From Paenibacillus sp. Soil750 (GTDB taxonomy: Bacteria; Bacillota; Bacilli; Paenibacillales; NBRC-103111), in assembly GCF_001428045.1 (NCBI RefSeq), contig NZ_LMSD01000001.1, forward strand, positions 496,001-560,000: a stretch of DNA of 64,000 nt. Direction: 5' to 3'. The notes below the pieces were generated by a model that made no database searches, was not told where the DNA came from, and was given only the letters and a program-made list of their open reading frames with translations. Positions 13,407 to 26,259 of this stretch are shown here, in pieces; the stretch's first letter is position 1, and the number at the start of each line of letters is the position of its first letter. Both the position numbers and the translations under genes were made by a program.

Positions 13407-13686
13407 TAACTGAACATATAGCGCATAAACATTCCTTCCAGAAGGGAACGTAGATGCGCTACGGCAAGTATCGGGGTGCAAGGGGGCGTGCTCCCTGCAT
13501 TCTTTATGGCTTGAAGTGACACACTAACGTTTACATTCCTTGACACGAAGGCAAATTGGGTTTGGCGCCGCGCTATAACTAAAATCCAGCCGTTAAACAA
13601 GTAATAACAGGATTGGCGGATGCGCATCACGTTATTTTGATGGTTAATGCCTCGAAAACTATAGCCTTCTTTATAATAAATACGAA

Positions 13687-13724
13687 GAAACGGCAGCCAT
13701 TTTTTTCTCAACTATCGGGCATAG
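13687..13724 (+). repeat. Repeat unit a (partial) of the TAACGGGCAG family
   Basis: CGGCAGCC, a T run, then CTCAACTATCGGGCATAG. It matches the hairpin base and right-hand core of the family, but the left core is missing. The 13407-13812 stretch holds only this fragment; I see no gene in it. Confidence 0.45.
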
Positions 13725-13812
13725 AAAAACACCCCATAGCAGACTTCGGTTGAACCAGAATGGTTATCCGATATCTCGACTACAGGGTGATTTTAATAAG
13801 TGGGAAAATCTG

Positions 13813-14034
13813 TTATTCTTGTGCGTTGGATTCGTCTCGTTTCTCTGCGATAAATCCATTGATGCTCTCTTTGCGGCGAGCATTTTTGGATTCGATGCTC
13901 TCTTTGTCTACAGCAGAAATTTCATCCGCATGTTCATCCAAGTATTCCTCAGCTTCGTTTAGATTTGCCATTGTATTATCGATGGCATTCTGAATACGGG
14001 CTGGATTATCTTCGCGATTGTCTGGCTTAGCCAT
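13813..14034 (-). CDS. tlp: Small acid-soluble spore protein Tlp
   Basis: 73-aa hydrophilic protein. MAKPDNREDNPARIQNAIDNT and NARRKESINGF match the Tlp (thioredoxin-like SASP) family made in the forespore and found in the spore core. A GGGAGGGAA site precedes the ATG at 14034. It stands alone and is divergent from sspH, as expected for sigma-G-controlled genes. No clear role beyond spore packing or outgrowth is known for the family. Confidence 0.9.
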   Translation of the reverse strand: MAKPDNREDNPARIQNAIDNTMANLNEAEEYLDEHADEISAVDKESIESKNARRKESINGFIAEKRDESNAQE

Positions 14035-14273
14035 TGTAGTTCCCTCCCTTTGTTGCGATAGATTAACATCCTGTTATACAATTCCAAATGATCAATCAAA
14101 TTATTCATTCAAACAAAAAAACGGCAACCCCGTCCCTTTAAGACGAAAGCGTTTAAATAGAAATATAACCGATAAAACGCCAAAATCTGGTTAGCGACCG
14201 ACTGAAGGCCAGACGAACTTGAAACAGTAGAACAGAGGATTGTCCTTGGGATTTTAACGTGAGTAACATACCA

Positions 14274-14303
14274 TGAATACATCCTTTCAAACGTACAAAT
14301 AAT
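14274..14303 (+). promoter_or_regulatory. Candidate sigma-G promoter of sspH-like gene
   Basis: TGAATA (14274-14279) and CAAATAAT (14296-14303) are separated by 16 bp and sit ~30 bp before the start of a spore protein gene. They resemble forespore sigma-G -35 (GAATA) and -10 (CATNNTA) elements. The rest of 14035-14332 holds nothing else that I recognise. Confidence 0.45.
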
Positions 14304-14332
14304 GTAACTAGTACGTGAAGGGAGGACAAAAA

Positions 14333-14563
14333 ATGAACATTCAACGCGCTCAAGAGATTGCAGTTTCACCAGCCATGGTTGATGTTACTTATAATGGGAC
14401 GCCAATCTACATCCAACATGTCGACGAAAAGAATGATACAGCCAGAATTTATCCTTTGGATCAACCTGAAAACGAGCAAAGCGTACCTTTAAGCAGTTTA
14501 GTCGAGAGCTCCCAAATGTTAGATATTGCAGACATTAAAATGATATGCCCATCACCTAAATGA
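14333..14563 (+). CDS. sspH: SspH-type small acid-soluble spore protein
   Basis: 76-aa protein. The N-terminal two thirds (MNIQRAQEIAVSPAMVDVTYNG, PIYIQHVDEKNDTARIYPLDQPENE) match the H-type SASP family closely. It is some 15 residues longer than the usual ~59 aa. ATG 14333 is chosen because GGGAGGA lies 8 bp before it; the frame also extends to 14315. A hairpin at 14721-14750 is the nearest terminator. Confidence 0.9.
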   Translation: MNIQRAQEIAVSPAMVDVTYNGTPIYIQHVDEKNDTARIYPLDQPENEQSVPLSSLVESSQMLDIADIKMICPSPK

Positions 14564-14720
14564 TAAGAAATATGTTAATCATGAATCAATGAGTGATTTC
14601 CATAATATTCCATGAGATGTTATGGATCAGATTATCCAGAAAATAATGAAAGTGAATCTAGGGATATTGATAAGCATGTGTTAGGCTTATGTGCTCCCAC
14701 TAAATACTTGAAATATTAAG

Positions 14721-14763
14721 AGCCGCGTAACTCACTTGAGAAACGCGGCTTTAGTCTTATTTT
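14721..14763 (+). terminator. Terminator-like hairpin after sspH
   Basis: 8-bp stem AGCCGCGT/ACGCGGCT (14721-14728 with 14743-14750) followed by a T-rich stretch. It lies about 160 bp after the stop of sspH. Confidence 0.55.
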
Positions 14764-14819
14764 CGTAAAAAAGCTTAGAGAGAGCGCTAATCCGATAAGC
14801 AGTAGACTGACCGTAACTT

Positions 14820-14842
14820 GCTAAACGAACGGGCAGTTTAGC
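14820..14842 (+). repeat. Repeat unit b (single core) of the TAACGGGCAG family
   Basis: GCTAAAC (14820-14826), the spacer gaacgggca, and GTTTAGC (14836-14842) form a perfect 7-bp inverted repeat around an AACGGGCAG core. The rest of 14564-14929 holds only the terminator-like hairpin at 14721. Confidence 0.6.
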
Positions 14843-14929
14843 ACAACATAATAGTAAAAATGTGGTAATATACTATACATCGAAACTATTTTATAGCGGA
14901 CATACCTACTGTAAAGGATGAGATACTTA

Positions 14930-15327
14930 GTGCAGTATTCTGAAGTTATCTTTCGATTGCATAAGCGGACTGATACAGAGAAAATTGTAACTTTGATTAA
15001 CCGCGATCCTTTTCACTTATTGAATGGTACCTCCGTTGGAGAGTTTGAGCTATCCTTGGATGAGCCAGGGAGAAGAACCTGAGAAAATACTTTTGTTATT
15101 GAGACTAATCAGACTATCATTGGCTTTTTTTCATTAAGCTTCTTAGAAAAGGATATGTACATAGTAGTCGACTGTTTTGGTACAGTAGATTTCGTTCGGA
15201 GAAAGATTTCGGAGTTTTGGAAGTTCGTCTAGCTGTAGATATCAAAAATGAAGCTGCTAAGTCGTTATATAAAAAATTAGGTTTTATCCATGAATCTAAA
15301 CGAACCAATCTCGTTATCACACTATAA
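14930..15327 (+). pseudogene. Decayed GNAT-family N-acetyltransferase
   Basis: The frame from GTG 14930 encodes VIFRLHKRTDTEKIVTLIN, then a TGA at 15080-15082 (codon 51). The same frame resumes with TFVIETNQTIIGFFSLSFLEKD. Between ~15180 and 15208 the frame shifts. The new frame encodes FGVLEVRLAVD followed by NEAAKSLYKKLGFIHES, the end of a GNAT acetyl-CoA fold, and stops at 15327. The normal motif A (R/Q-x-x-G-x-G) is lost. The gene is therefore broken by at least one stop and one frameshift with probable deletion. It is followed directly by repeat unit c. Confidence 0.75.
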
Positions 15328-15393
15328 ACAGGGAGCAGATTGCGTGGCAGCTGCTCCCTGTTTTCATTCAAGTAACGGGCAAGATAGTTCGAG
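15328..15393 (+). repeat. Repeat unit c: terminator-like hairpin plus right core
   Basis: An 11-bp stem ACAGGGAGCAG/CTGCTCCCTGT (15328-15338 with 15351-15361) and TTTT are followed by the right core AAGTAACGGGCAAGATAGTTCG (15370-15391). It is nearly identical to unit f 3.9 kb away, except that f also has the left core. Confidence 0.75.
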
Positions 15394-15446
15394 AAGTTGT
15401 TGCGCAAAAAATCTTTTATACTAATTTTATCTAAGGGGGTATATGT

Positions 15447-16037
15447 ATGCATGCTAAAATGTTGCAAGTACAAAACGTCAGGAAACCTGAAATAAGTGAA
15501 AACATTGCAATTGATGCAGAAGCGATGGGTTTCAAGATGTCCTGTGATTTAGAGACAGCTTCTTTACTACGAACGTTAGCAGGTTCGTGTAAAAATGGGA
15601 TGCTATTAGAATTGGGTACTGGTGCGGGGATATCGACAAGTTGGATATTAGATGGAATGGATAGAGAATCATCTTTATTGACTGTTGAACTGGATGAAAC
15701 TATCCAAAATATAGCCAAGAAACATTTAAGCTTTGATAATAGGGTTCAGTTTTACAACATGGATGGAGAAGAATTTATAAAACAAATAGCAAATCAAAAG
15801 TTTGATTTTATTTTTGCTGATACTTGGCCTGGGAAATTTTATGTACTAGATGAAGCTTTAGTCTTACTAAAGCCTGGAGGTCTATATATCATTGATGATT
15901 TATTACCGATTCCGTCCTGGCCTGATGAACATGCAACAAAGGTAGAGGAATTGATTGGTTATTTGGACAGTAGAGAAGATTTAATAATAACAAAGTTAAA
16001 TTGGTCCACTGGATTAATCATCGCAACAAAGAAGTGA
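15447..16037 (+). CDS. Class I SAM-dependent O-methyltransferase-like protein
   Basis: 196-aa Rossmann methyltransferase. SAM motif I is LLELGTGAG (53-61), the acidic loop LTVELDETI follows, and FDFIFADTWPGKFYVLDEALVLLKPGGLYIIDDL is the typical O-methyltransferase strand 4-5 region. The substrate is unknown. The ATG at 15447 follows AAGGGGG. It stands alone between repeat units c and d, like a cassette gene, and is clearly more AT-rich than the metabolic genes outside the accessory region. Confidence 0.85.
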   Translation: MHAKMLQVQNVRKPEISENIAIDAEAMGFKMSCDLETASLLRTLAGSCKNGMLLELGTGAGISTSWILDGMDRESSLLTVELDETIQNIAKKHLSFDNRVQFYNMDGEEFIKQIANQKFDFIFADTWPGKFYVLDEALVLLKPGGLYIIDDLLPIPSWPDEHATKVEELIGYLDSREDLIITKLNWSTGLIIATKK

Positions 16038-16080
16038 ATAATGATATTAAACAGTGAACAATTTTCATAATCAAATGCCA

Positions 16081-16124
16081 ACAGCGGCAGCTTTTCGTTT
16101 CGCTAACGGATAACAATAGTGGAA
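16081..16124 (+). repeat. Repeat unit d of the TAACGGGCAG family
   Basis: ACAGCGGCAGCTTTTCG followed by the core CGCTAACGGATAACAATAGTGG. The hairpin base is present, but the second core is absent. Confidence 0.6.
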
Positions 16125-16192
16125 AACGAGCTTTTATTGACTCTTGTGGATGATATAAAATGAAAATAGTTCAACCTAAAGGCGGGGAATTC

Positions 16193-16648
16193 ATGCGGTA
16201 CCAATGGCGAGTAACGAAATACAATCCTGATTATCGTGACGAAAAGGGAAACTATCAAAAAACCAATGAATGGACTTCATACAGTGATATAGGCAAAACT
16301 GTAACAAAGGAAGAGTATGAAACAGTAGCAAATGCATATGTGAATAGTGTTATCTCGCTAATGAATAAGCTGGAAGTTAAACATCTTAGAGTAACGAATC
16401 TCGAGGGAGAATCGCCACTGAAGGAAGGACAAATTATCTATATCTCTGATTTGAATACAGTTATTCAGGCTGTTCTTCGAGACGAGTATTGGTGCAAGCT
16501 GGAATCTAATGATATTTTTGTACACTTTGGGTTCGATTTTTATATGTATCTTGGATCCAATGACGATAGTTCGGAAGTACTTCACGAAATAAAATTGTCT
16601 GGGCTGTATGTGGAACTTTATGAATCACCATATTTATTTCCTAGTTAA
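16193..16648 (+). CDS. Hypothetical protein, 151 aa
   Basis: Soluble protein starting MRYQWRVTKYNPDYRDEKGNY, with no signal peptide or membrane segment. I recognise no catalytic motif. The pattern is of a small alpha/beta protein with a conserved-looking middle (EGQIIYISDLNTVIQAVLRDEYWCKLES). The ATG at 16193 is preferred because GGCGGGG precedes it; the frame extends to 16160. Single gene after repeat unit d. The following 150 bp contain nothing recognisable. Confidence 0.7.
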   Translation: MRYQWRVTKYNPDYRDEKGNYQKTNEWTSYSDIGKTVTKEEYETVANAYVNSVISLMNKLEVKHLRVTNLEGESPLKEGQIIYISDLNTVIQAVLRDEYWCKLESNDIFVHFGFDFYMYLGSNDDSSEVLHEIKLSGLYVELYESPYLFPS

Positions 16649-16800
16649 CATTGAAAAAGAGGTCAAGTATATAAGGTAACAATTTCCGAAATAGACGGCA
16701 TTTACATAAGAAAGTACGTGCGATATGATAATTTTGCATATTTATCCAATCATAGAGTTGGGGTTATATTGAGTGAGCCTTATTTGGGGAGGTCGTCGGC

Positions 16801-17610
16801 ATGGAGAAGAATACTGTTTATGGGAAAAGCATTATAGGCGGTAGTGAGGTTGGTATCATCTCGGTCGACGACATGGATACGAGTGTTGTTCATGAAACAA
16901 ACAGCTTGTTTTGGGATACAAAAGGAAATGATGTTTTAGGAGCAACCTCACTTCCTCTTTATGGAGCATTTGTTTCAGAAGAAAAATGCCAGCTTTTTGG
17001 CGATGTCTCAGGAAAAAAGATACTGGAAATAGGCTGTGGAAGCGGTCAATCTTTGCAATATCTGGGGGAACGCAAAGCATCTGAACTATGGGGTATGGAT
17101 ATATCAGAGAACCAACTCGAAAAGACAAAGCAACATCTGACGGAGTTCGGTCTTTCAGCAAAATTAATCTGTTCTCCTATGGAAGAAGAATGTGGCATAC
17201 CAGAGGATTATTTTGACTTTGTTTATTCGGTTTATGCAATAGGCTGGACAACTGACCTTGAGGGTACTTTTCGCCGGATTGCTTCTTACCTAAAAAAAGA
17301 CGGCGTATTTATTTTCAGCTGGTCTCACCCAATACACAAATGTGTTGCTGCGCAAGATAATATGCTTGTTTTCAAAAAAACTTATTTCGATGAATCTTGG
17401 TATTCGCTATCTCTTGGAGGAAGTACGCTAACATTATCGGACCGTAAACTATCAACCTATGTAAATGCGTTAGCAAAAGCGGGATTTGTCATTGAGCAAA
17501 TGATTGAGGAATCTGATGATGAAATTATGCAATCGGGGGCTAACAGCGCTTTCGCAAAAAAAGCAGAGATGCTTCCTGTGACTTTTGTATTCAAGGCAAG
17601 AAAACTATAG
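16801..17610 (+). CDS. Class I SAM-dependent methyltransferase
   Basis: 269-aa methyltransferase of the UbiE/Methyltransf_11 type. Motif I is ILEIGCGSGQS (~74-84), followed by ELWGMDISENQLEKTK and FDFVYSVYAIGWTTDLEGTFRRIASYLKKDGVFIFSWSHP. The first ~25 residues are dispensable, but ATG 16801 has a GGGGAGG site, so I keep it. The substrate is unknown. It is monocistronic and ends at a good terminator that is part of repeat unit e. Confidence 0.85.
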   Translation: MEKNTVYGKSIIGGSEVGIISVDDMDTSVVHETNSLFWDTKGNDVLGATSLPLYGAFVSEEKCQLFGDVSGKKILEIGCGSGQSLQYLGERKASELWGMDISENQLEKTKQHLTEFGLSAKLICSPMEEECGIPEDYFDFVYSVYAIGWTTDLEGTFRRIASYLKKDGVFIFSWSHPIHKCVAAQDNMLVFKKTYFDESWYSLSLGGSTLTLSDRKLSTYVNALAKAGFVIEQMIEESDDEIMQSGANSAFAKKAEMLPVTFVFKARKL

Positions 17611-17623
17611 AAAGACGATATTT

Positions 17624-17689
17624 GAGGAGCTTGCTTCGCGGCAGCTCCTCTTTTTTGTTTATTAAAGTAACGGGCAGGTTAGTGGAATA
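17624..17689 (+). repeat. Repeat unit e: terminator hairpin plus right core
   Basis: GAGGAGCT/AGCTCCTC stem (17624-17631 with 17643-17650) with a following T6 forms the terminator of the methyltransferase gene. The right core TTAAAGTAACGGGCAGGTTAGTGGAAT follows at 17662-17688. Confidence 0.7.
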
Positions 17690-17712
17690 AGAAATGGATA
17701 AATAAAATAAAG

Positions 17713-17740
17713 AAAACTCGCCAACACTGCGGCGAGTTTT
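17713..17740. terminator. Terminator of the SDR gene
   Basis: 10-bp stem AAAACTCGCC/GGCGAGTTTT with an 8-nt loop. On the minus strand it is followed by a U-rich tract and lies ~100 bp downstream of the SDR stop. Confidence 0.7.
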
Positions 17741-17841
17741 GCTTTGTTATATGCCAAGGCGAAGTCAAAACAACTGTCATTTTGATTTATGATTTCGGAA
17801 AAAGCACCAACACAATGGTAGTATCTATTTCATAAGTATAG

Positions 17842-18603
17842 TTAATCAATTGTGTCTTTCATGGCCATGTACATATTTTCCACATGTTCGTCGACTTCAT
17901 CTCGTGACATGCGTAAGCGATTCACAGAAGTACCATATCCAATTTCCTTTTTACCTTCTTCTAATCCTTTGAAAATTCCATCTGCGAAGGCATCTAATGG
18001 TTCAGCATGCGTATGCAACCCCGCCCCACCTAAATCTGTATTCACTGCCGGAGGAGCAACTTCAATTACTTCTACAGACGTATTCGAGAGTTGGTGTCTT
18101 AGACTCACTGTAAATGAATGAAGTGCCGCTTTTGTTGCTGAATAAATCGGAGCAATCGCAAACGGTGTAAAAGCTAGCCCAGATGTCACGTTAATGATAG
18201 TCGCCTCTTCTTTTGTTGCAAAAAATGGAGCGGACAGCATTGAGAGATGGAAAGGTGCTTCAATGTTGGTTGTGATTTCTTTATTGAAATAACTCCAATT
18301 GTTCTTCGGATCCGCTTTTAACACATTAAAGCGTTGTTGGATCCCTGCATTGTTAACTAACACATTCACTTCTGGATAGTTAGCGATTACCCAGTCAAAC
18401 AATGCTACACGCTCAGATTCAATATCCAAATTACATACACGAGTAATAAGGCTTGGGAATTTTTCTTTCGCATTTTGAAGTACATGTTCACGTCGTCCAC
18501 AAATAATAACTTTATTTCCAGCTTTTATAAAGCGCTCAGCAAAAGCTAATCCTATTCCAGCACTTCCGCCTGTAATAAGTATTGTATTTCCTGAAAGTTT
18601 CAT
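17842..18603 (-). CDS. Short-chain dehydrogenase/reductase
   Basis: 253-aa NAD(P)-dependent SDR. The cofactor motif TGGSAGIG is at 11-18, NNAG follows (LVNNAGI), and the catalytic YxxxK is YSATK near residue 150 with the upstream serine in NVTSGLAF. It belongs to the DltE/YdfG-like classical SDRs. ATG 18603 is chosen because GAGGAAC lies just upstream; the frame runs to 18624. It is 48 bp after the merR-type gene and is very likely in one operon with it. The substrate is unknown. Confidence 0.88.
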   Translation of the reverse strand: MKLSGNTILITGGSAGIGLAFAERFIKAGNKVIICGRREHVLQNAKEKFPSLITRVCNLDIESERVALFDWVIANYPEVNVLVNNAGIQQRFNVLKADPKNNWSYFNKEITTNIEAPFHLSMLSAPFFATKEEATIINVTSGLAFTPFAIAPIYSATKAALHSFTVSLRHQLSNTSVEVIEVAPPAVNTDLGGAGLHTHAEPLDAFADGIFKGLEEGKKEIGYGTSVNRLRMSRDEVDEHVENMYMAMKDTID

Positions 18604-18651
18604 TATAGTTCCTCTTCTCATCATTTTCTTAACTTAATAAAAACAAATTTA

Positions 18652-19083
18652 TTATGCCTTTTCTGAATTTGTATTAAAACCAGCGATAAGCAAACCGTCA
18701 AAGTCTTTTTCACTCTTTTCTTTCCTGAGTACGATAGTGTAACGTGTAATTTTTACATCAATTCCTTTTAAGGATTCTGTCATCAACAAAATCTCAGCTA
18801 GCACAGCTTGCTTGTGATTCTTCATCATTTCAAGTCGGAGTTCAATCGTGTTATCTCCTTCAACTATCCAATCAATATATTGCTTGATATCACTTATTGG
18901 CATGTGCGTGTTTTTTAAACAAATAACGGTTTCAAGGAGCGCCATTTGATCTTCTGAAAATAACCGCCTACCAGCATTATCACGCTCGATTAGTGGTAGT
19001 AATCCTTTTTTTTCATAATAACGTAACGTGGATTCTGGAATATTGAATTTGTCTGAAGCTTCGCTAATTAAACAATACTTCAT
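18652..19083 (-). CDS. MerR-family transcriptional regulator
   Basis: 143-aa regulator. The N-terminal MerR winged helix is clear (LISEASDKFNIPESTLRYYEKKGLLPLIERDNAGRRLFSED), followed by a coiled-coil dimer helix. There is no cysteine metal site, so it is of the drug/stress type. It lies upstream of the SDR gene and a textbook MerR operator-promoter precedes it, so it probably controls its own SDR operon. Confidence 0.9.
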   Translation of the reverse strand: MKYCLISEASDKFNIPESTLRYYEKKGLLPLIERDNAGRRLFSEDQMALLETVICLKNTHMPISDIKQYIDWIVEGDNTIELRLEMMKNHKQAVLAEILLMTESLKGIDVKITRYTIVLRKEKSEKDFDGLLIAGFNTNSEKA

Positions 19084-19124
19084 CTGGAGGCCTCCAAATT
19101 TTATCTTTCATTGTCGACAAGAAT

Positions 19125-19155
19125 ATGATACGACTTAAACCATAGTTTAAGTCAA
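19125..19155 (-). promoter_or_regulatory. MerR-type promoter with 19-bp spacer and palindromic operator
   Basis: On the minus strand TTGACT (19155-19150) and TATCAT (19130-19125) are separated by exactly 19 bp. The perfect inverted repeat GACTTAAAC-4-GTTTAAGTC (19153-19132) fills the spacer. Overlong spacers bridged by a dyad are the hallmark of MerR-activated promoters. Confidence 0.85.
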
Positions 19156-19230
19156 CAAAAAATATTTTGGTTTTTGTAGAAGGAATAAACTAATTAGAAC
19201 CCACTGGTGAAGAAAAATCTAAATGAAACT

Positions 19231-19325
19231 AAACTAAGGGGTAACGATAGCACAATAAACAGGGAGCAGATTGCCGCGCGGCAGCTGCTCCCTGTTTTCA
19301 TTAAAGTAACGGGCAGGATAGCGGA
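19231..19325 (+). repeat. Repeat unit f (complete) of the TAACGGGCAG family
   Basis: Left core AAACTAAGGGGTAACGATAG (19231-19250), then an 11-bp hairpin (19259-19269 with 19285-19295) and TTTT. The right core AAAGTAACGGGCAGGATAGCGG comes last (19302-19323). A complete ~95-bp unit. Confidence 0.8.
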
Positions 19326-19380
19326 ACTTTCCATGATTTGGAAACGTAATAAGACTATAAGACCAAAGGAGGAGCCTTTT

Positions 19381-19809
19381 ATGAAAAAGATATACTGCCA
19401 TATCATCCTTTTTATATCTATATTGTTTTTGAATAGTGGGTGTAGTGACCAAAACAAAAACCCATTGATAACAATTGAATATTTAAAAGACAATGCAAAA
19501 ATTGGAATGACTGAAAATGAAATTAAAAATAAGTTTGGACAAGAGGCATTTAGAGGTTACGGGGATGGAAGTGATGTATGGATATTTGATAAAACAAAGG
19601 AAAGCTTTAAATATACACCTGATATTCAGCGTGTAGCACATGGTGAAATTAAGAATGGGAACTTACAATATCAACTCTATATCAATGTGATTAAGAACAA
19701 AACAATTATGTTCTCTTATTTTTATAAAGGGGATAATGGTGAAATTTGGCAAATTGTTATAACCCCCGACGGAATACAAAAGGAAACACAAGTGAGTCAT
19801 AGTAATTAG
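19381..19809 (+). CDS. Small secreted lipoprotein, hypothetical
   Basis: 142 aa with a lipoprotein signal (MKKIYCHIILFISILFLNSGC, lipid-anchor Cys ~21), so it should be tethered outside the membrane. The mature part starts with IGMTENEIKNKFGQEAFRG, the motif of BamE/SmpA-like beta-lactamase-inhibitor-fold domains. Start at ATG 19381 behind AAGGAGGAG; the open frame runs further upstream but through repeat unit f. Function unknown. Confidence 0.75.
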   Translation: MKKIYCHIILFISILFLNSGCSDQNKNPLITIEYLKDNAKIGMTENEIKNKFGQEAFRGYGDGSDVWIFDKTKESFKYTPDIQRVAHGEIKNGNLQYQLYINVIKNKTIMFSYFYKGDNGEIWQIVITPDGIQKETQVSHSN

Positions 19810-19919
19810 GAGCAGCCTAAGTAGGTGTCATTATCAGATTTTTCTTCTATATATAGAAGTTTGGTTTAGATACATTAAATACATTACGGAGAACTGTATC
19901 ATGAATAAGACAGGTCACG

Positions 19920-20008
19920 TTATTAAGCTAACGGGTAACGTTAGTTAGTTGAATGCCAAAAGTGCTCTCGCCTGGTAGCCAATCGTTACGAATGGGCAGG
20001 ATAAGCAG
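19920..20008 (+). repeat. Repeat unit g (complete) of the TAACGGGCAG family
   Basis: Left core ATTAAGCTAACGGGTAACGTTAGTTAG (19922-19948) and right core CGTTACGAATGGGCAGGATAAGC (19984-20006), about 40 bp apart. The hairpin between them is weak in this copy. The 19810-20077 gap has no gene that I can see. Confidence 0.7.
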
Positions 20009-20077
20009 TTTTACTTCAAAGGATTTTTATGGAAAATACCGAATAAGATTAACAAGATGTTGACAGTGTAGTTATTC

Positions 20078-20623
20078 ATGAATCAAGTGGGATTGGAGAG
20101 GGTATTTTTGCAGGAAGCAATAGCGATTGATTTGGTTGAAGTGGCGCCTTTCAAGACATTGGCAGTAAGAACGGGAATGACACCAGACAAGAGCGGGACG
20201 CGGGTGGCCTGGAGCAAGCTTACCGCGCAGGTCCCACTTGATGATACGCGACTTACGGACTGGCCTTCAGCGTATGTGTTCATTCCACAGGAGCAATGGA
20301 GCAAAAAAGTCGATACGCTTTGGGTCGGATTGGCGGTTCGTGAGTTTGGGGATGTACCGGATGGCATCGAGACTTTGGAGGTAAGCGGAGGGCTTTGTGT
20401 GAGCGCCCGAGTCTACGGGAATGAGGCCCATATGTGGCGAGTATATGAAGCGATATTTGCGTGGCTCGAGCAGTCGCCTGATTATGAGATTGATCGGCGT
20501 CATGGCGTACTCGGGATGGAGACAGTTCCGCTTGAACCGTTGAACGCTCTCACAATCCCTTATTCTGAAATCGAAACATTTAACTTTAAAATGCTATACC
20601 CTATTCGTAAGAAGTCGTCGTAG
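20078..20623 (+). CDS. GyrI-like small-molecule-binding domain protein
   Basis: 181-aa stand-alone effector-binding domain of the GyrI/AraC-E type. Diagnostic parts are VEVAPFKTLAVRTGMT at the start of the first repeat, WPSAYVFIPQEQW, and the second repeat GLCVSARVYGNEAHMWRVYEAIFAWLEQSPDYEIDRRHG with an acidic pocket region. No DNA-binding domain is present. Relatives bind or hydrolyse small hydrophobic compounds or inhibit gyrase toxins; which applies here cannot be told. Single gene bounded by repeat units g and h; a terminator follows. Confidence 0.8.
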   Translation: MNQVGLERVFLQEAIAIDLVEVAPFKTLAVRTGMTPDKSGTRVAWSKLTAQVPLDDTRLTDWPSAYVFIPQEQWSKKVDTLWVGLAVREFGDVPDGIETLEVSGGLCVSARVYGNEAHMWRVYEAIFAWLEQSPDYEIDRRHGVLGMETVPLEPLNALTIPYSEIETFNFKMLYPIRKKSS

Positions 20624-20675
20624 ATTTGTACGAAGAACTTCTGTTCAGTAAATCCATGTTATCTACAAAGAAAGG

Positions 20676-20700
20676 GCCATCCTGCAAAGGATGGCTTTAA
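20676..20700 (+). terminator. Terminator of the GyrI-like gene
   Basis: 8-bp stem GCCATCCT/AGGATGGC (20676-20683 with 20688-20695), loop of 4 nt, followed by TTTAA. Confidence 0.6.
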
Positions 20701-20744
20701 AACTTGCCGTTACAGACAGTGCGGAAAACCTTATGACAGTAAAC

Positions 20745-20775
20745 CTCTACGCTAACGGGCAGGATACTTGAGTAA
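20745..20775 (+). repeat. Repeat unit h (right core) of the TAACGGGCAG family
   Basis: TCTACGCTAACGGGCAGGATACTTGAGTAAA, the right core alone. It ends immediately at the start codon of the next gene. Confidence 0.65.
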
Positions 20776-21213
20776 ATGCTATGCTATCTACAAAAGGAAT
20801 TGGAAGAAAAAAGTAAATGTAATCGGGGTGTCTTAGTGGTATTAGCATTAATTGGAAGTGTTACATTTTTAGCGATTGCTATTTTGTACATATTGTTAGC
20901 TATGGGTTTACCTTACGGAGAGTTTGCAATGGGCGGTAAGTACAAAGTAATGCCAAAACAAATGAGAGTTGCATGTGCAATTTCGGTATTAATTCAGTTG
21001 GTTGCAATTATCTTTTTACTTCAAGCAGGGAATGTAATCTCGATAGATGCTTTAACAACCATTGCGATAGGAGTATGTTATTTTTTTTCATTTTATTTAA
21101 TAGTAAATACCATAATAAATGCTTTGTCCAAAAGTAAAAAGGAAAAGTTTGTTATGACACCATTATCTTTTCTCACTGCAATTTGTTTCCTAATAACAGC
21201 GATGAATGGATAG
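20776..21213 (+). CDS. Small integral membrane protein, hypothetical
   Basis: 145 aa with four predicted membrane segments (about residues 19-44, 66-86, 91-113, 125-143) and a conserved-looking loop LPYGEFAMGGKYKVMPKQMR between the first two. ATG 20776 has no good ribosome binding site, so the true start could be a later codon near 20836. Function unknown. Single gene between repeat units h and i. Confidence 0.7.
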   Translation: MLCYLQKELEEKSKCNRGVLVVLALIGSVTFLAIAILYILLAMGLPYGEFAMGGKYKVMPKQMRVACAISVLIQLVAIIFLLQAGNVISIDALTTIAIGVCYFFSFYLIVNTIINALSKSKKEKFVMTPLSFLTAICFLITAMNG

Positions 21214-21313
21214 ATAACGGATAAACTATCTTCTGTTTGATTGGTCAGGCAGTTGCATTGAAGGAAAATAGTGGCAGCCCTTTGCTGCACTAACGGGCAG
21301 GATAGTTTAATCG
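21208..21313 (+). repeat. Repeat unit i (complete) of the TAACGGGCAG family
   Basis: Left core GATAGATAACGGATAAACTATC (21209-21230), a GGCAGC/GCTGC hairpin around 21273-21288, and right core CACTAACGGGCAGGATAGTTTAATC (21288-21312). The left end overlaps the stop codon of the membrane protein gene. Confidence 0.75.
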
Positions 21314-21335
21314 TTTTCCCGAATATAGATTCAAT

Positions 21336-21791
21336 ATGAATTATTATTTTTGGGTGGGATTATGGCAAACTCGATTTTTTATTGTTAAAGAAAGTAATAT
21401 AGTAATTGAAGAAGAACATGAGGAAGAAATGTTACTTTGGGGCGAATCGCCCCTTAATAGTGATTCATTATTAAGTATTTCTAAATCACTACATCAAGAA
21501 AAAAGTTGGTCTGATGAAAGAATTCAGTATGGAAAAATTGATGGGACTTGTTTGGAAATCAGCTATGATGGAAACATCATTTCGGAAATAACATGTAGGA
21601 TTGACGTTAGAAATATAAGTTTAGAAATACTAAGAGAAATTGTGGATTTCATGGTTATCAATAAAGCAAGAATATTAATAAGTGAAACCATTTATGATGC
21701 TTCATTAGATTCAATAGCTCTAACAATAAAACAATCGAATGCTTATAGATTTTGCAAAGATCCATTAGCTTTTCTAAATGATTTATGCTGA
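21336..21791 (+). CDS. Hypothetical protein, 151 aa
   Basis: AT-rich, acidic, soluble protein (MNYYFWVGLWQTRFFIVKES; IEEEHEEEMLLWGESPLNSDSL). No recognised motif. Its size, acidity and position as a single gene between repeat units i and j resemble orphan immunity-type or cassette genes, but that is inference. ATG 21336 lacks a strong ribosome binding site. Confidence 0.6.
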   Translation: MNYYFWVGLWQTRFFIVKESNIVIEEEHEEEMLLWGESPLNSDSLLSISKSLHQEKSWSDERIQYGKIDGTCLEISYDGNIISEITCRIDVRNISLEILREIVDFMVINKARILISETIYDASLDSIALTIKQSNAYRFCKDPLAFLNDLC

Positions 21792-21803
21792 AATTTGAAA
21801 AAA

Positions 21804-21837
21804 GCATTAAGCTAACGGATAACGATAGCTCAATGAT
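21804..21837 (+). repeat. Repeat unit j (left core) of the TAACGGGCAG family
   Basis: GCATTAAGCTAACGGATAACGATAGCTCAATGAT. AGCTAACG and CGATAGCT form an 8-bp imperfect inverted repeat around GATAA. Confidence 0.7.
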
Positions 21838-21868
21838 AGAAACGGTATTTTGAAAGGAGTTAGGGGAT

Positions 21869-22048
21869 TTGGCACAATGTCAGTCTTGTGGTGACAAAAA
21901 GCAAGATTCAGAACTGATACTTTTTGATGGCACTCCCCATCCAAATTTAGTCGATCAATTCAAAAAGAAACTTACTGCTCCTATCTTAATCTTACCTAGG
22001 CAATCGGGGAAATTACGACTCCCTACTTTGAAAAGTCTAAAGGAATAA
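21869..22048 (+). CDS. Small CxxC protein, 59 aa
   Basis: A short frame with a TTG start behind AAAGGAG (9-nt spacing) encodes AQCQSCGDKKQDSELILFDGT, ending in TLKSLKE. It carries one C-x-x-C pair, as in half a zinc ribbon or a thioredoxin-like site, then a region with VDQFKKKLTAPILILPR. It lies between repeat unit j and the peptidase E gene. The good ribosome binding site and uninterrupted frame support it; function unknown. Confidence 0.55.
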   Translation: MAQCQSCGDKKQDSELILFDGTPHPNLVDQFKKKLTAPILILPRQSGKLRLPTLKSLKE

Positions 22049-22082
22049 ATGACAAACACACACAACGACAAGGAGTGAAGTT

Positions 22083-22766
22083 ATGAAATTATTGCTCACA
22101 TCTGCAGGCATTAATAACAAAAGCATACAAGACGCGTTAGTTGACATGCTGGGCAAGCCGATCGCCGACTCCAACGCCTTGTGCATCCCCACAGCGATGT
22201 ACGGACACCCCTGGGTCGGCCCCGGTGTCAAAGCCTGGCATTTCATCAGCGGGAATTCCGAGAATCCCATCTACAAGAATCCCATGGTCGACCTGGGCTG
22301 GAAGTCCGTCGGCGTGCTGGAGCTCACAGCGCTGCCAAGCATCAACAAAGACCGCTGGGTGCCGCTGGTCCGGGAGACGGACGTCCTGCTGGTGGCGGGC
22401 GGGGACGCCCTCTACCTGTGCCACTGGATGCGGCAGTCGGGAATGGCAGACCTCTTGCCGTCGCTGAAGGCAGTTTATGTGGGAATGAGCGCCGGGAGTA
22501 TGGTGATGGCACCTAACATTGGGGAATTCTTCGTTGGCTGGACTCCACCCACCGGTGGTGATGAAACACTGAGTCTGGTTGATTTCGCAATATTTCCGCA
22601 TCTGGACCACGAGATGCTGCCTAGTAACACTATGGCTGCTGCAGAGAGATGGGCCGCTGGGATGCAAGGGCCGACGTATGCGATTGATGATCAGACCGCC
22701 ATTAAAGTAATCGACGGGGCAGTCGAAGTTGTTTCCGAAGGGAATTGGAAGCATTTTTCACCCTGA
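22083..22766 (+). CDS. Peptidase E (S51) family protein
   Basis: 227-aa class I glutamine-amidotransferase-like serine hydrolase. The nucleophile is S136 in YVGMSAGSMVMAP, and VLLVAGGDALYL (102-112) is the other family signature. Relatives are alpha-aspartyl dipeptidases or cyanophycinase-like peptidases. AGGAGTGAAG precedes ATG 22083. Base composition is uneven: the first ~55 bases are AT-rich, ~22140-22480 is very GC-rich, and the end returns to average, which suggests a mosaic origin. Single gene before repeat unit k. Confidence 0.85.
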   Translation: MKLLLTSAGINNKSIQDALVDMLGKPIADSNALCIPTAMYGHPWVGPGVKAWHFISGNSENPIYKNPMVDLGWKSVGVLELTALPSINKDRWVPLVRETDVLLVAGGDALYLCHWMRQSGMADLLPSLKAVYVGMSAGSMVMAPNIGEFFVGWTPPTGGDETLSLVDFAIFPHLDHEMLPSNTMAAAERWAAGMQGPTYAIDDQTAIKVIDGAVEVVSEGNWKHFSP

Positions 22767-22886
22767 TATACTCCGTTGTAGAGTCAATGGTGGAGAATTG
22801 CATATAGTTCCAATATAATTGGTGCAAATCCCAAAGGAATACATTAAGGGGGATGATTGTTGGATACGTTCAGCCATAAACATCAT

Positions 22887-22987
22887 TTATTAAACTAACG
22901 AATAACGATAGTTCAATTACGACATGACGGCAGCTGGTATTTGACCGGCTGCCGTTTTCTATTGAGTAACTGGCATTGTTAGTTCAT
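22887..22987 (+). repeat. Repeat unit k (complete, most symmetrical copy)
   Basis: Left core TTAAACTAACGAATAACGATAGTTCAA (22890-22916), a 12-bp hairpin ACGGCAGCTGGT/ACCGGCTGCCGT with one mismatched pair (22927-22938 with 22944-22955), and right core ATTGAGTAACTGGCATTGTTAGTTCA. The outer AACTAAC and GTTAGTT boxes are exact complements, so the whole ~100 bp can fold into one long imperfect hairpin. Nothing else was seen in 22767-23105. Confidence 0.8.
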
Positions 22988-23105
22988 ATTAAATACACAA
23001 CGAGGCTGCCACGGAAACGATCGACGGCCTCGTTGAACCGTAAAGATTTGATCATTGCTCAATTTCCCCACTCATACGTTTGGTGTGATCTATCTTGCAG
23101 CCGTT

Positions 23106-23615
23106 TTAATGACCAATCGCATAGTGCAATTGAACGACGCCGCTGCCGAGTGATTTGAAGTTCAACAATTCCACTTCCTTGTATTGGTACTTCTCCGTAT
23201 CAATCAATAGATTGAGTCCCTTCCCTTCCAATACCGGCGCGACATTGAATATGAGCTCGTCAACAAGCCCTTGACCCAGAAAAGCATTGTGAAGGTCCGC
23301 GCCTCCCGAGATGAGGGCGGTTTGATAGCCTTTATCCTGCAGGTAGCTCAGGGCTTCGAGCGGGGAGCCGACAACCGTTACACCGGGAATTTCTTTCACG
23401 TTTGCTGATACGACAACGATATCCATGCCGGTAAAAGCTCCCCCGCCTCCGCTCGCCTGCATCCCTTCAAATGTGCGTCTTCCGACAATGAAATTACCAG
23501 CTACTTGAGCATGTGCCGCAAAATCGCCGAGAGCTTCCTTTTTTGGGGGATTATTCGGACTCGATTGTGCGTAGTTGCCATTGCCTGTTAGTGTTGCCCA
23601 TAGAATTGTTTTCAT
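23106..23615 (-). CDS. Dihydrofolate reductase-like (RibD C-terminal domain) protein
   Basis: 169-aa protein with the DHFR/RibD_C fold: MKTILWATLTGNGNYA at the start, VAGNFIVGRRTFEGM (the NADPH-binding G-R-x-T-F motif) and LISGGADLHNAFLGQGLVDELIFNVAPVLEGKGLNLL. Such stand-alone proteins are usually pteridine or riboflavin-type reductases of unknown substrate, not the folate enzyme. A GGAGG site precedes the ATG at 23615. It lies 45 bp downstream of the dehalogenase gene on the same strand. Confidence 0.85.
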   Translation of the reverse strand: MKTILWATLTGNGNYAQSSPNNPPKKEALGDFAAHAQVAGNFIVGRRTFEGMQASGGGGAFTGMDIVVVSANVKEIPGVTVVGSPLEALSYLQDKGYQTALISGGADLHNAFLGQGLVDELIFNVAPVLEGKGLNLLIDTEKYQYKEVELLNFKSLGSGVVQLHYAIGH

Positions 23616-23660
23616 TGGATAGCCTCCTAATAGTCGATGATAATAAACGGTGATTATAGT

Positions 23661-24557
23661 TCAGCATAGCTTACTTGATTGTCGCGATGTCCGTTCAAGG
23701 ACTCTGCGGATGGATGCGACCACTCGGTCCGGCCGATCTTCCTGCACGTAGTGGGAGGCATCGTCTAACGACTCGGTTTCGTTCAATTTCAAATAACCTT
23801 GCCATTTTGCCATCTCTTCGGGTGGAAAGCCCGCGCTATCCTTCATCCCCCACAGAATCTGTGCTGGTAAATTGGATAGAACCGGAAGTTTCGCCTCTAT
23901 TTCCTCGAGCCACGGACGCGCTTTTCGGATCTGCCTTGGGAATACCCATGTCGGTTTACGGGATTTTGGGGTTGGGAATGGATCGGTGTAGGCTTTTCTC
24001 AAGTCATCCGTGATTTTCTCGGAATGATAGATCCCATGTGGGACAATCTTCTTGGCGAAGAAGTTTCGCCTTGTCTGCAGCCAATATCCGAAGGGCCATC
24101 CGCCTATGGCAAACGAGAATAGCTTCATCGCAGGGAGCGTGGCCGGCCATGCCCAGGTATTCATCACGACAACTCCGCGCAGGTTCTCATGGTGCCTTAC
24201 AGCGTAGTTGAATCCGATCGGGCCTCCCCAATCTTGGACGACTAGTACGAAGTCCTTGAGATCCAGTCGCCGGATGAATTCAGTGACAGCCTCAGAATGC
24301 TCTTTCGGCGTATAGCCATAATCGGAAGGAGCTCGTGACATTCCGAGTCCCGGGAAATCTAATGCAATCAGACGGCATTCGCCGCTCAATTCTTTGATGA
24401 CGTTCCGGTAAAGATACGACCAGGTGGGGTTTCCGTGTAGGAGAAGAATGACAGGCCCGTGACCCTCATCAACGTAATGAATCATGCCATCGCGATAAGA
24501 CATCCAGTGGTCCCTGAACGGATACTCCGATGCATCTACATCAAACGGTCTTTGCAT
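23661..24557 (-). CDS. Haloalkane dehalogenase-like alpha/beta hydrolase
   Basis: 298-aa alpha/beta hydrolase. The nucleophile is D109 in VVQDWGGPIG (Asp instead of Ser), with the halide-stabilising pair N43 (HGNPTW) and W110 next to it and the catalytic His in DDASHYVQED near residue 270. This set is the haloalkane dehalogenase signature. ATG 24557 follows TTGGAGG; the frame extends to a TTG inside that site. It is divergent from an HxlR regulator. True dehalogenase activity is likely from the residues but not certain, as the natural substrate is unknown. Confidence 0.85.
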   Translation of the reverse strand: MQRPFDVDASEYPFRDHWMSYRDGMIHYVDEGHGPVILLLHGNPTWSYLYRNVIKELSGECRLIALDFPGLGMSRAPSDYGYTPKEHSEAVTEFIRRLDLKDFVLVVQDWGGPIGFNYAVRHHENLRGVVVMNTWAWPATLPAMKLFSFAIGGWPFGYWLQTRRNFFAKKIVPHGIYHSEKITDDLRKAYTDPFPTPKSRKPTWVFPRQIRKARPWLEEIEAKLPVLSNLPAQILWGMKDSAGFPPEEMAKWQGYLKLNETESLDDASHYVQEDRPDRVVASIRRVLERTSRQSSKLC

Positions 24558-24823
24558 TTTTTCCTCCAATCTGCCAATTGTTTCAAGCAGCGTTTAAATA
24601 GTATGGACTATCAGTCTGAATATTCTGATTATTAAAGTGATTCAAAGTCCTGTTAATATCGATTGAGCGCCCCGGTTGCGCGCACCACACAGGGATTGGT
24701 ATCGATATGAAGTAGAATTTTGTGTTTCGGCTCTTCAATAAGACTACAGCACTGTGGTATATTTGAAAAGTACTTACAATAAAGTGCAGTAGTTTCAAAA
24801 AATGAACTACGGAGGAATCGTCA

Positions 24824-25165
24824 ATGTTGGATCGTTCTTGTATCGAAGCCATTGATCCTTTGCTGGAAATCTTGGATGGTAAGTGGACCCTGCCTCTTCT
24901 GCTAGAGTTGTTTGTCGGAACCAAACGATTTGGAGAGCTGCGGCGAAAGCTACACCCGATTAGCCCGAAGACGTTAACGGATCGACTGCGGGTGCTGGAG
25001 GAGAAGGGGATTATAACGCGCACGCAGTACCCCGGTGTGCCCTTGCACATCGAATATGAGCTGACTGAGCGAGGGTGGAATCTGCAGCCTATTTTTGCGG
25101 CTATGTGGACATGGGTTCAGGAAAATGGCTTAAGTACCGAGCGAGGGACGGAAGAGATGGCATAG
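24824..25165 (+). CDS. HxlR-family winged-helix regulator
   Basis: 113-aa regulator: CIEAIDPLLEILDGKWTLPLLLELFVGTKRFGELRRKL and ISPKTLTDRLRVLEEKGIITRTQYP are the classical HxlR winged helix. Such proteins sense reactive or toxic small molecules and often regulate a divergent oxidoreductase or hydrolase gene, which fits the divergent dehalogenase/DHFR-like pair. The intergenic 24558-24823 must hold both promoters; I could not define the operator. Confidence 0.9.
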   Translation: MLDRSCIEAIDPLLEILDGKWTLPLLLELFVGTKRFGELRRKLHPISPKTLTDRLRVLEEKGIITRTQYPGVPLHIEYELTERGWNLQPIFAAMWTWVQENGLSTERGTEEMA

Positions 25166-25263
25166 GTGTGAATGTAACGAAGCACGGGAGCGCAGACGGT
25201 TGGGAGCGGAACAAATGATTGACACGATAGTCTCCGTTCATCTCGAAAATGCGGTAGGCTCTT

Positions 25264-25378
25264 TCAATTAAGTTAACACTTGAAGAAGTTGCGTTTCTGG
25301 AAGAGCGCGGCGATGGAATCGATCCATCGCTTGTTTTCGTTTCTTTCGATAAGCTTAACTATCGGGCAGATTTGTTTA
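25264..25378 (+). repeat. Repeat unit l (diverged) of the TAACGGGCAG family
   Basis: TCAATTAAGTTAACACTTGAAG as a degenerate left end, an 8-bp hairpin GCGATGGA/TCCATCGC (25310-25317 with 25323-25330) with TTGTTTT after it, and the right core AACTATCGGGCAGATTTG. It fills most of the 25166-25476 gap. Confidence 0.55.
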
Positions 25379-25476
25379 ATGTTACAAATTTCCTTATTAA
25401 GCCAACAAAATTCCATTACTATTCAATATTACATATGTTAGTCTTCTTAAAAAAGGAGCTAGCATGGAGGGGAAAT

Positions 25477-25947
25477 ATGGCTGAAAATAAAAATTATATT
25501 CGTTTTATTCGAGAAAAGGTTGGAAAGGATTTAATATTTCTTAATTTTTCCGGAGGTATTATTTACAACGAAAAGAATGAAGTGTTATTGCAAAAACGAG
25601 GAGATAGAAATGCATGGGGATTCCCAGGCGGTGCAATGGAACTTGGGGAATCAGCTGAGGAAACAGCAATACGCGAAATTTTTGAAGAAACTGGTCTAAC
25701 AGTGAACGTTGAACATCTAATCGGTATATATACAAAATATTTCGAAACTTATCCTAACGGCGGAAAAGCTCAGACTATTTCTTTCTTTTTTCAGTGTAAA
25801 TCAGTTAGTGGCGAGCTAACTGCTGACGGGACAGAAACATTAGAAGTAAGATATTTCTCTATTGAGGATTTACCACCCCTTTTTAACAAACAACATGAAG
25901 ATGCTTTGAAGGACTGGCTACTCAATAAAATAGGCACTTATAGATAG
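25477..25947 (+). CDS. NUDIX hydrolase
   Basis: 156-aa protein with a complete Nudix box: G52, E58, R66-E67, E70-E71, G73 in GGAMELGESAEETAIREIFEETGL. It hydrolyses a nucleoside diphosphate linked to another group, with Mg2+; the substrate cannot be read from sequence. ATG 25477 behind GGAGGGG is used; the open frame continues to 25372 but overlaps the end of repeat unit l. Single gene between units l and m. Confidence 0.92.
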   Translation: MAENKNYIRFIREKVGKDLIFLNFSGGIIYNEKNEVLLQKRGDRNAWGFPGGAMELGESAEETAIREIFEETGLTVNVEHLIGIYTKYFETYPNGGKAQTISFFFQCKSVSGELTADGTETLEVRYFSIEDLPPLFNKQHEDALKDWLLNKIGTYR

Positions 25948-26039
25948 GTTCGTTCTACACTAGGATGAGAGGAATTTCTTTTTGATTTATCAGGCGTCGA
26001 GCGGAAAGGTCAATAAAAGACTAGGTAGAATGGCTTTTG

Positions 26040-26118
26040 TTGAACTAACTGGGAACGTTAGTTCAATAGCACAGCGGCAGTCTAAGACTTTATTTTCAAG
26101 TCCTAGTCTGTCGCTGTT
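26040..26118 (+). repeat. Repeat unit m: perfect core palindrome plus hairpin
   Basis: TTGAACTAAC (26040-26049), spacer tgggaac, GTTAGTTCAA (26057-26066): a perfect 10-bp inverted repeat, the best core in the window. It is followed by a long imperfect hairpin ACAGCGGCAG...TGTCGCTGT (26071-26118) and TTTAATTTTT. There is no right core. It marks the end of the repeat region. No gene was seen in 25948-26259. Confidence 0.75.
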
Positions 26119-26259
26119 TAATTTTTATGTCCAGAATAATTCTTGATTTTATAAACTGACAACATTTCAATACACAAATCCCGTAACATCAAGGGGGCCA
26201 GTCTAACACTATATCTTCTCATGACAGTTGTCTTTGAAGACAGCTTCTTCTTAGCATTA

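Follow-up and report, generated by a model that had tools for sequence, protein, structure and literature searches.

A string of small accessory genes in Paenibacillus sp. Soil750 is very probably made of mobile cassettes, integron-like without belonging to an integron, whose core sites would be recombined by an Xer-like tyrosine recombinase. It lies in the window, by which we mean the whole 64-kb stretch of this genome (G000) that was analysed; other G numbers denote relatives, L numbers fetched loci and C numbers contigs of G000. In the mechanism we propose, a cassette may hold one or two genes, a short terminator-like hairpin, or the recombinase gene, and it would start with the right half (approximately GATAGTTCAA) and end with the left half (approximately TTRAACTAAC) of one core. 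Because each cassette would begin and end in this way, every junction would rebuild a core of the form A-spacer-B, and all cores of an array would point in the same direction. The recombinase, of 280 amino acids (aa), would swap partners at the core, with the crossover inside the 6-7-nt spacer or at its edge. A pair of direct cores would give excision of a circle, and a core meeting another core or a core-like target would give insertion. Partner spacers differ in sequence and in length, as though a single strand were exchanged.

Core sites and units

The repeated unit consists of two core sites of about 27 bp, in direct orientation, that flank a hairpin. Each core comprises TTRAACTAAC, a spacer of 6-7 nt and GATAGTTCAA. 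Left-type cores read TTRARCTAAC-GGRDAAC-GATAGTTCAAT and right-type cores TTNARSTAAC-GGGCAG-NWTAGTT, and the hairpin between them is GC-rich and often followed by T. At 16.1, 20.75, 21.8, 25.35 and 26.05 kb of the window only one core is recognisable.

The right core (TAACGGGCAGGATAG, up to 3 mismatches) has 8 matches in the window, all on the + strand and 7 of them inside the array; shuffled sequences gave a mean of 1.3, and 0 of 100 shuffles reached 8. The left core has 6 matches, all on the + strand and within the array (shuffle mean 0.2, largest 2). A profile made from 29 G000 units gave 14 window matches, from 13,688 to about 26,067, and none elsewhere in the 64 kb. On a set of 61 loci this profile gave 411 matches, and 0 in the reversed sequences. 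Across the whole of G000, a pattern search returned 27 matches (0 with the reversed pattern) and the profile 132 at E<=0.01. These sites cluster on contigs C1, C10, C25, C27, C42, C43 and C44, and each cluster is unidirectional, except that on C43, which has one switch.

An earlier note on this DNA had described thirteen repeat places, pointing one way, with genes on both strands between them and no repeat elsewhere in the window. The array stands, as do its single direction (all 14 profile matches are on the + strand) and the mixed gene strands, the Tlp spore-protein, short-chain dehydrogenase (SDR) plus MerR, DHFR-like and hydrolase genes being on the - strand. The unit itself had to be corrected to two direct cores around a hairpin, which we regard as a probable hairpin cassette, with several places holding a single core. 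Confinement to the array holds by the profile but not by the right-core search, which has one 3-mismatch match outside, at 31,474.

At the threshold chosen, a core scanner found 391 cores, and 27 when the sequence was reversed. The core-to-core segments of 22 arrays comprise 62 short ones (<150 bp) and 201 of gene size (median 777 bp). In the latter the longest open reading frame (ORF) runs along the cores in 167 cases and against them in 27, and is shorter than 50 aa in 7. An array of G016 has 56 matches on its strand within 60 kb.

Folded as a single strand, the window unit at 19222-19330 has a z of -4.3 on the + strand and -4.8 on the - strand, and a unit of L032 has a z of -3.9 on both. 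RNAalifold found no consensus base pair in 29 units, so the unit profile (R1) is one of sequence only; the covariance model that the note had suggested thus gave way to a sequence-profile search, which placed units in 94 of 104 genomes of the family and in 18 of 22 genera. Under strict filters no unit was found in the other 10 genomes, and five genomes have from 70 to at least 150 matches each. Rfam returned one weak match, below its threshold. As a separate observation, the inner core halves around the hairpin show less complementarity when both come from one unit than when they come from different units (z -4.3; 354 units), as if pairing were avoided. At L097 (G027), just above position 2454, more than 20 G in a row adjoin a core at a cassette boundary, either as an assembly artefact or as a real feature.

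Exchange at the core and an Xer-like recombinase

Where arrays have blocks in common, the block ends coincide with cores roughly five times as often as chance would give. A set of 77 blastn alignments between arrays, from which the syntenic backbone and the recombinase loci were excluded, has 235 distinct ends, of which 60 are no more than 25 nt away from a core; 200 random shifts gave a mean of 12.6 and a maximum of 21. Eight block pairs of 88-100% identity stand in different surroundings and have cores at 3 or 4 of their 4 ends; three of these are one cassette, found in G005, G016 and G026. A block common to G021 and G026, for example, covers 734 bp at 97%. Two arrays of G016, one on each replichore, have a 446-bp block in common at 100% identity, and in each it points in the fork direction. 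Single cores that join two genes without a hairpin were also found.

To resolve the breakpoint, we compared sites in pairs that have one neighbour in common. In left-type cores, the left half agrees (0.75-0.98) in 55 pairs with a common upstream gene and the right half is close to background, whereas in 343 pairs with a common hairpin the right half agrees and the left half does not. In right-type cores, agreement between 30 pairs with a common downstream gene starts at the first base after GGGCAG, with none before TAAC, and agreement between 190 same-hairpin pairs runs up to the base before TAAC, with none after GGGCAG; TAACGGGCAG is too conserved to place the switch within it. The pairs are not independent, as the 190 same-hairpin pairs come from 140 units in 25 hairpin clusters. 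The left-core analysis had both halves anchored, since spacers range from 5 to 8 nt and anchoring on one side blurs the signal. Hairpins and genes are also independent of each other. Among 157 same-hairpin pairs the upstream flank is common in 0 and the downstream flank in 1, and among same-flank pairs (20 and 22) the hairpin is common in 0 and 1; one gene-plus-hairpin block was nonetheless seen in G016 (L105/L108). The switch inside the core and this independence thus point to an exchange point in the core and to hairpins that move as cassettes of their own, and the switch together with the core-bounded blocks argues for site-specific recombination.

Homologous exchange through RecA, in which cores and hairpins would be patches of homology for gene swaps between arrays, could also produce shared blocks. 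It would draw on the cores of about 27 bp and the hairpin families that arrays have in common, and it suits the fact that most block ends lie away from cores. However, such exchange favours long shared hairpins, so that flank and hairpin should be linked, and they are not. The linkage switches inside the core instead, and the direction by replichore would be left unexplained. We regard this account as highly improbable.

The array of the window is missing from its place in four relatives. The left flanking gene (12,762-13,406) and the right one, for an AraC-type regulator (26,260-28,593), are 12.8 kb apart in the window; their orthologues adjoin, 83-451 bp apart, in G011, G013, G015 and G024, and no unit was found in the 40 kb fetched at that place from each. 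In G010 they are 31 kb apart, with two matches between, one of them weak; in G020 the flanks are not rejoined within 37 kb, where there are 13 sites; and G029 is uninformative. Homology ends on the left at 13,461 (G010, G020) and resumes on the right at 26,233 and 26,239 (G013, G015), about 240 bp (left) and 170 bp (right) outside the outermost cores.

A tyrosine recombinase of the short Xer type was found beside an array of G005 by a screen in which a profile of five G000 recombinases was run against the ORFs of the fetched loci. Its family (E<=1e-60) is present in 42 of the 103 genomes searched, at up to six places each and with many copies broken; the remaining one of the 104 was counted as lacking it. 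Whole or broken, it occurs in 35 of 48 genomes with at least 30 units, in 7 of 46 with 1-29 and in 0 of 10 with none (Fisher 1e-8 for at least 30 against 1-29 units and 0.005 for none against any, uncorrected for kinship; unit counts near 39 per genome mean at least that many). Of its relatives in named genomes the best 80 of 290 were kept, and 79 of these 80 loci have units within 10 kb, as the note's suggestion of a co-occurring tyrosine recombinase would have it; 503 units are on the recombinase strand, 5 on the opposite strand and 0 in the reversed control. A half-core, mostly left-type, lies 60-173 bp upstream of 34 of 62 full-length copies, and one that is mostly right-type lies within 150 bp downstream of 29 of 60. 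The gene lies in or at arrays, with no shared primary (attI-like) site recognised.

R138, K162, H229, R232, H255 and Y264 are invariant in 20 copies, and we take them to be the catalytic residues. The protein is below the cut-off of every NCBIfam model listed, including XerA, XerC, XerD and the integron integrase. Its best models are of the XerA/XerC/XerD type, as are the best E-values over the 36 members of set A3. XerD is collinear with it (17-276 to 17-289, with small gaps), and IntI4 aligns only over 202-270 to 240-308 in its best stretch. We infer that this recombinase does the work at the cores and that circles form. An AlphaFold model from a 20-row alignment was poor (mean predicted local distance difference test score, pLDDT, 54) and was not used. 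The tyrosine recombinases of G000 itself were considered as the enzyme and rejected, as they fall outside the co-occurring family and the eight strong ones are all absent from the fetched arrays. Three of them, 300-365 aa long, and part of a fourth are grouped within 26 kb at C10:164626-190320 (L066, L067, L070, L073), less than 20 kb from a core array. In most of 24 upstream regions inspected (L200-L223), an inverted repeat (approximately AAACCTCCC...GGGAGGTTTT) precedes the start of the Xer-like gene, possibly as a transcription attenuator.

The position of the recombinase bears on a further alternative, in which core-hairpin-core would be a miniature inverted-repeat transposable element (MITE), a non-autonomous derivative of left core-recombinase-right core that the enzyme has spread, and the genes would be neighbours at hot spots. 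The recombinase often stands between a left-type and a right-type core, where small units have their hairpin, and does so on a plasmid too; the half-core ends counted above are common to it and to hairpin elements; and hairpin types recur beside unrelated genes. It is hard to reconcile with gene blocks that recur without hairpins and with both ends at cores, with single hairpin-less cores that join two genes, or with a whole 12.8-kb string that is missing from empty sites, and we think it unlikely. Such a derivation may nevertheless be the origin of hairpin cassettes. It overlaps with the mobile-cassette reading, and the likelihoods we attach to the readings do not sum to one. Of the two possibilities that the note had raised, a pure family of repetitive extragenic palindromic (REP) or MITE elements leaves the gene blocks cut at cores unexplained. 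The other, a cassette-type capture system, is supported by blocks cut at sites above chance, the linkage switch in the core, the absence of the array from four relatives and the co-occurring family of tyrosine recombinases. An even scatter of units in both orientations, with no polymorphism bounded by them, is not what was found.

Direction, known systems and reach

Core direction follows the replichores. Among eleven genomes in which dnaA was located, nine chromosomes with 229 matches listed have exactly one switch of direction each, near the point opposite dnaA. A simple antipode rule fits 213 of the 229, and the other 16 are within 4% of the circle from the antipode; two of the nine have few matches (G076 five; G069 nine, one of them on the far side). 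In G000 the clusters follow the sign of the GC skew, and on C43 the cores change direction where the skew changes sign. If three in four sites followed the leading strand (an assumed share), the chance of 213 of 229 would be 1e-12; this figure, and the ORFs that oppose the cores in 27 of 194 segments, make core direction stronger than gene-strand bias. The orientation may arise from recombination on single-stranded DNA at the fork or from completion by replication. Exchange of single strands at the fork, as for attC, would explain both the direction and the unequal spacers.

Orientation could also reflect a function at the level of the chromosome, such as an FtsK-orienting or terminator-like role, or only the position of the sites behind genes on the leading strand, rather than mobility. 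One switch per chromosome in nine genomes would be expected from this, and along the array the hairpin with its T run looks like a terminator. It does not account for ORFs that run against the array without turned cores, for family genomes without a unit and for empty sites, or for sites that lie in accessory islands and near a recombinase. It is the least probable of the explanations weighed here.

The closest comparison is with integrons. In attC sites, R'' is RYYYAAC and R' is GTTRRRY, and the two are inverted and base-paired. A true integron, or a cluster of attC sites lacking integron integrase (CALIN), would have the units as attC sites and an integrase that is IntI or has been lost. Both systems have long unidirectional arrays of small, mostly single-gene cassettes (here, in 167 of 194 scored segments, the longest ORF runs in the direction of the array), site pairs around a hairpin and a tyrosine recombinase nearby; left halves end in AAC in 299 of 354 units, and the clusters without integrase resemble CALINs. 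Nevertheless a single unit among the 354 has GTTRRRY (30 have GTT alone) and 14 have RYYYAAC, and the outer core halves of one unit show no more pairing than halves taken from different units (z 0.2). The integrase model TIGR02249 gives 91.3 bits, far below its cut-off of 265, in two stretches of which the best ends at profile position 181 of 315, whereas XerD is collinear over nearly its full length; in G000 there is no integron-integrase match above cut-off. The hairpin is unlinked to its gene and moves apart from it, unlike an ORF that travels with its own attC. Here a simple direct core takes the place of the paired attC, the recombinase gene sits in or beside arrays at up to six places per genome, and the arrays are at many places on both replichores, with no attI recognised. 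The system seems to work like an integron but, judged by integrase model, attC boxes, pairing and hairpin-gene linkage, is not one, and we hold a true integron to be very unlikely. The likeness to attC that had been noticed earlier holds for the unidirectional cassette array but not for the sites, whose arms are direct repeats without stem covariation.

According to the IntegronFinder 2.0 report, integrons are very rare in Firmicutes, with one complete element and a few CALINs (PMC9024848). A specific insertion in the catalytic domain of IntI is described as essential though not fully conserved in its subgroup (PMC8138268). The two systems are also alike in a tie to the replication strand, since in Vibrio cholerae assays attC folding from single-stranded DNA is favoured on the lagging-strand template (PMC8191803).

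The Xer/dif system resembles this one in its best models and in a core of about 27 bp with inverted 10-nt arms and a spacer of 6-7 nt. In contrast, the recombinase here is below the XerA, XerC and XerD cut-offs and encoded in accessory arrays, and a genome has from tens to more than a hundred sites, which point one way on each replichore, instead of one dif near the terminus. The pdif modules of Acinetobacter plasmids alternate in orientation and use the host XerCD. Elements of the IS200/IS605, REP-RAYT (REP-associated tyrosine transposase) and MITE kinds are likewise short, hairpin-bearing intergenic repeats, and IS200/IS605 elements have a strand bias linked to replication. Unlike IS200/IS605 and REP-RAYT, the present system has a tyrosine recombinase of the phage-integrase family in place of a Y1 transposase (no Y1 search was made), and its sites bound and move genes.

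Several observations weigh against an array of mobile cassettes worked by this enzyme. As many as 175 of 235 block ends lie more than 25 nt from any core, and decay and homologous exchange also act on the arrays. The left-core spacer tracks neither neighbour (identical in 0.11 and 0.07, background 0.04), which is unexpected under simple conservative exchange. A unit of L107 folds poorly (z -1.2 and -0.3), so that not every unit folds well. No half-core was recognised upstream of 28 of 62 recombinase copies or downstream of 31 of 60; over half of the unit-bearing genomes are without this recombinase, and G000 and G016 have many cores and no copy at E<=1e-60. Direction has exceptions too, namely one opposite core on C11 of G000, an array of G024 at 1.55-1.60 Mb that opposes the fork (GC-skew terminus 2.9-3.1 Mb), a 37-bit unit near it that opposes its neighbours (L214), and a few weak opposite matches (L108, 12,954 and 14,083). 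The comparison set has one genome per species, a resolution coarser than gain or loss between strains.

Outside the family, relatives of the recombinase with up to 53% identity are found on plasmids of Peribacillus, Sporosarcina, Cytobacillus and others, in nine records. A plasmid recorded as Arthrobacter citreus NEB 577 (L312) has an array of the same layout, with GGCAG in the right-type spacer, and its recombinase lies between a left-type and a right-type core and reads against the array. The gene (L312 8001-8840) is of Bacilli type, and the species label is questionable. Among 398 Bacilli genomes, 36 have a relative at E<=1e-45; 20 such loci were fetched, and similar cores form arrays at some of them and do not exceed the control at others. 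A looser core pattern gave 235 matches at distant Bacilli loci against 51 reversed (L312 counted twice on both sides, window included), with strong enrichment at L347 (41:5) and L354 (20:3), and was not above control at L310, L313, L345, L355, L358 and L364. Because enrichment is strong at some distant loci and lacking at others, an extension of the system beyond the family is suggestive. An exact 15-mer occurs in 26 viral stretches, mostly as lone weak matches, with arrays in three (L164, L169, L175); no viral stretch as fetched encodes the recombinase at 1e-10, and phage records gave five recombinase matches of 33-37% identity. In the literature searched, with preprints and most subscription papers outside its scope, no earlier description of these repeats or arrays came up.

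It is an even bet, in our estimation, that this is a class-wide gene-capture system of Bacilli, in which genes, terminators and recombinase would have one cassette format, with a single core and no attI/attC, insertion at many sites through single-stranded fork DNA, and cassettes that point from origin to terminus. The system of the arrays would be a second bacterial way, of different build, to store single genes and shuffle them, one that is common across a large soil family, and it could account for part of the accessory genome of Paenibacillus. The movable hairpins would be a new kind of cassette, and why cassettes follow the fork would become testable in a system without attC folding.

The array of the window

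Table 1. Sites and genes of the accessory array, in window coordinates
Feature	Position	Strand	Basis
Whole accessory array	13462..26232	.	homology to relatives stops/resumes; flanking genes adjoin in four relatives
Degenerate core, right type, array left end	13703..13727	+	nhmmer match 13688, 12 bits; limits from sequence
Spore protein Tlp gene	13813..14034	-	Pfam PF19824
Spore protein SspH gene	14315..14563	+	Pfam PF08141
Core, spacer 14831-14836	14821..14846	+	core scan
Core, right type, after hairpin ~15326-15366	15367..15392	+	profile and core scan; hairpin read from sequence
Methyltransferase gene	15447..16037	+	Pfam
Core, left type, single	16098..16124	+	left-core search and core scan
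Methyltransferase gene	16801..17610	+	Pfam
Core, right type, after hairpin ~17619-17661	17662..17687	+	profile and core scan; hairpin read from sequence
SDR and MerR regulator genes	17842..19083	-	Pfam
Core, left type, of best unit	19229..19255	+	profile (62 bits) and core scan
Hairpin between two cores	19256..19300	+	terminator-like by reading, no terminator scan; folding z
Core, right type	19301..19326	+	right-core search and core scan
Core, left type	19923..19949	+	left-core search and core scan
Degenerate core, right type	19984..20010	+	right-core search, 3 mismatches
GyrI-like protein gene	20078..20623	+	Pfam PF06445 above cut-off; PF14526 Cass2 below cut-off
Core, right type	20747..20772	+	right-core search and core scan
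Core, right type	21285..21310	+	right-core search and core scan
Core, left type, single	21807..21833	+	left-core search and core scan
S51 peptidase gene	22083..22766	+	Pfam
Core, left type	22890..22916	+	left-core search and core scan
Weak core, right type, after hairpin ~22917-22960	22961..22986	+	nhmmer match 22972, 12 bits; hairpin read from sequence
RibD_C/DHFR-like and alpha/beta hydrolase genes (-), HxlR regulator gene (+)	23106..25165	.	Pfam
Degenerate core, right type	25353..25380	+	4 mismatches
NUDIX hydrolase gene	25372..25947	+	Pfam
Core, left type, array right end, then hairpin ~26074-26116	26040..26066	+	left-core search, profile and core scan; hairpin read from sequence

Read by eye, the stretch 14918-15330 resembles an acetyltransferase gene that is broken and spread over more than one frame; the first frame, of 54 aa, has no Pfam match. 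Cass2, the sub-threshold match of the GyrI-like protein, is an integron-associated effector-binding family. Two genes for small acid-soluble spore proteins, Tlp and SspH, lie inside the array (13813-14563), and so the array may carry sporulation genes as cassettes.

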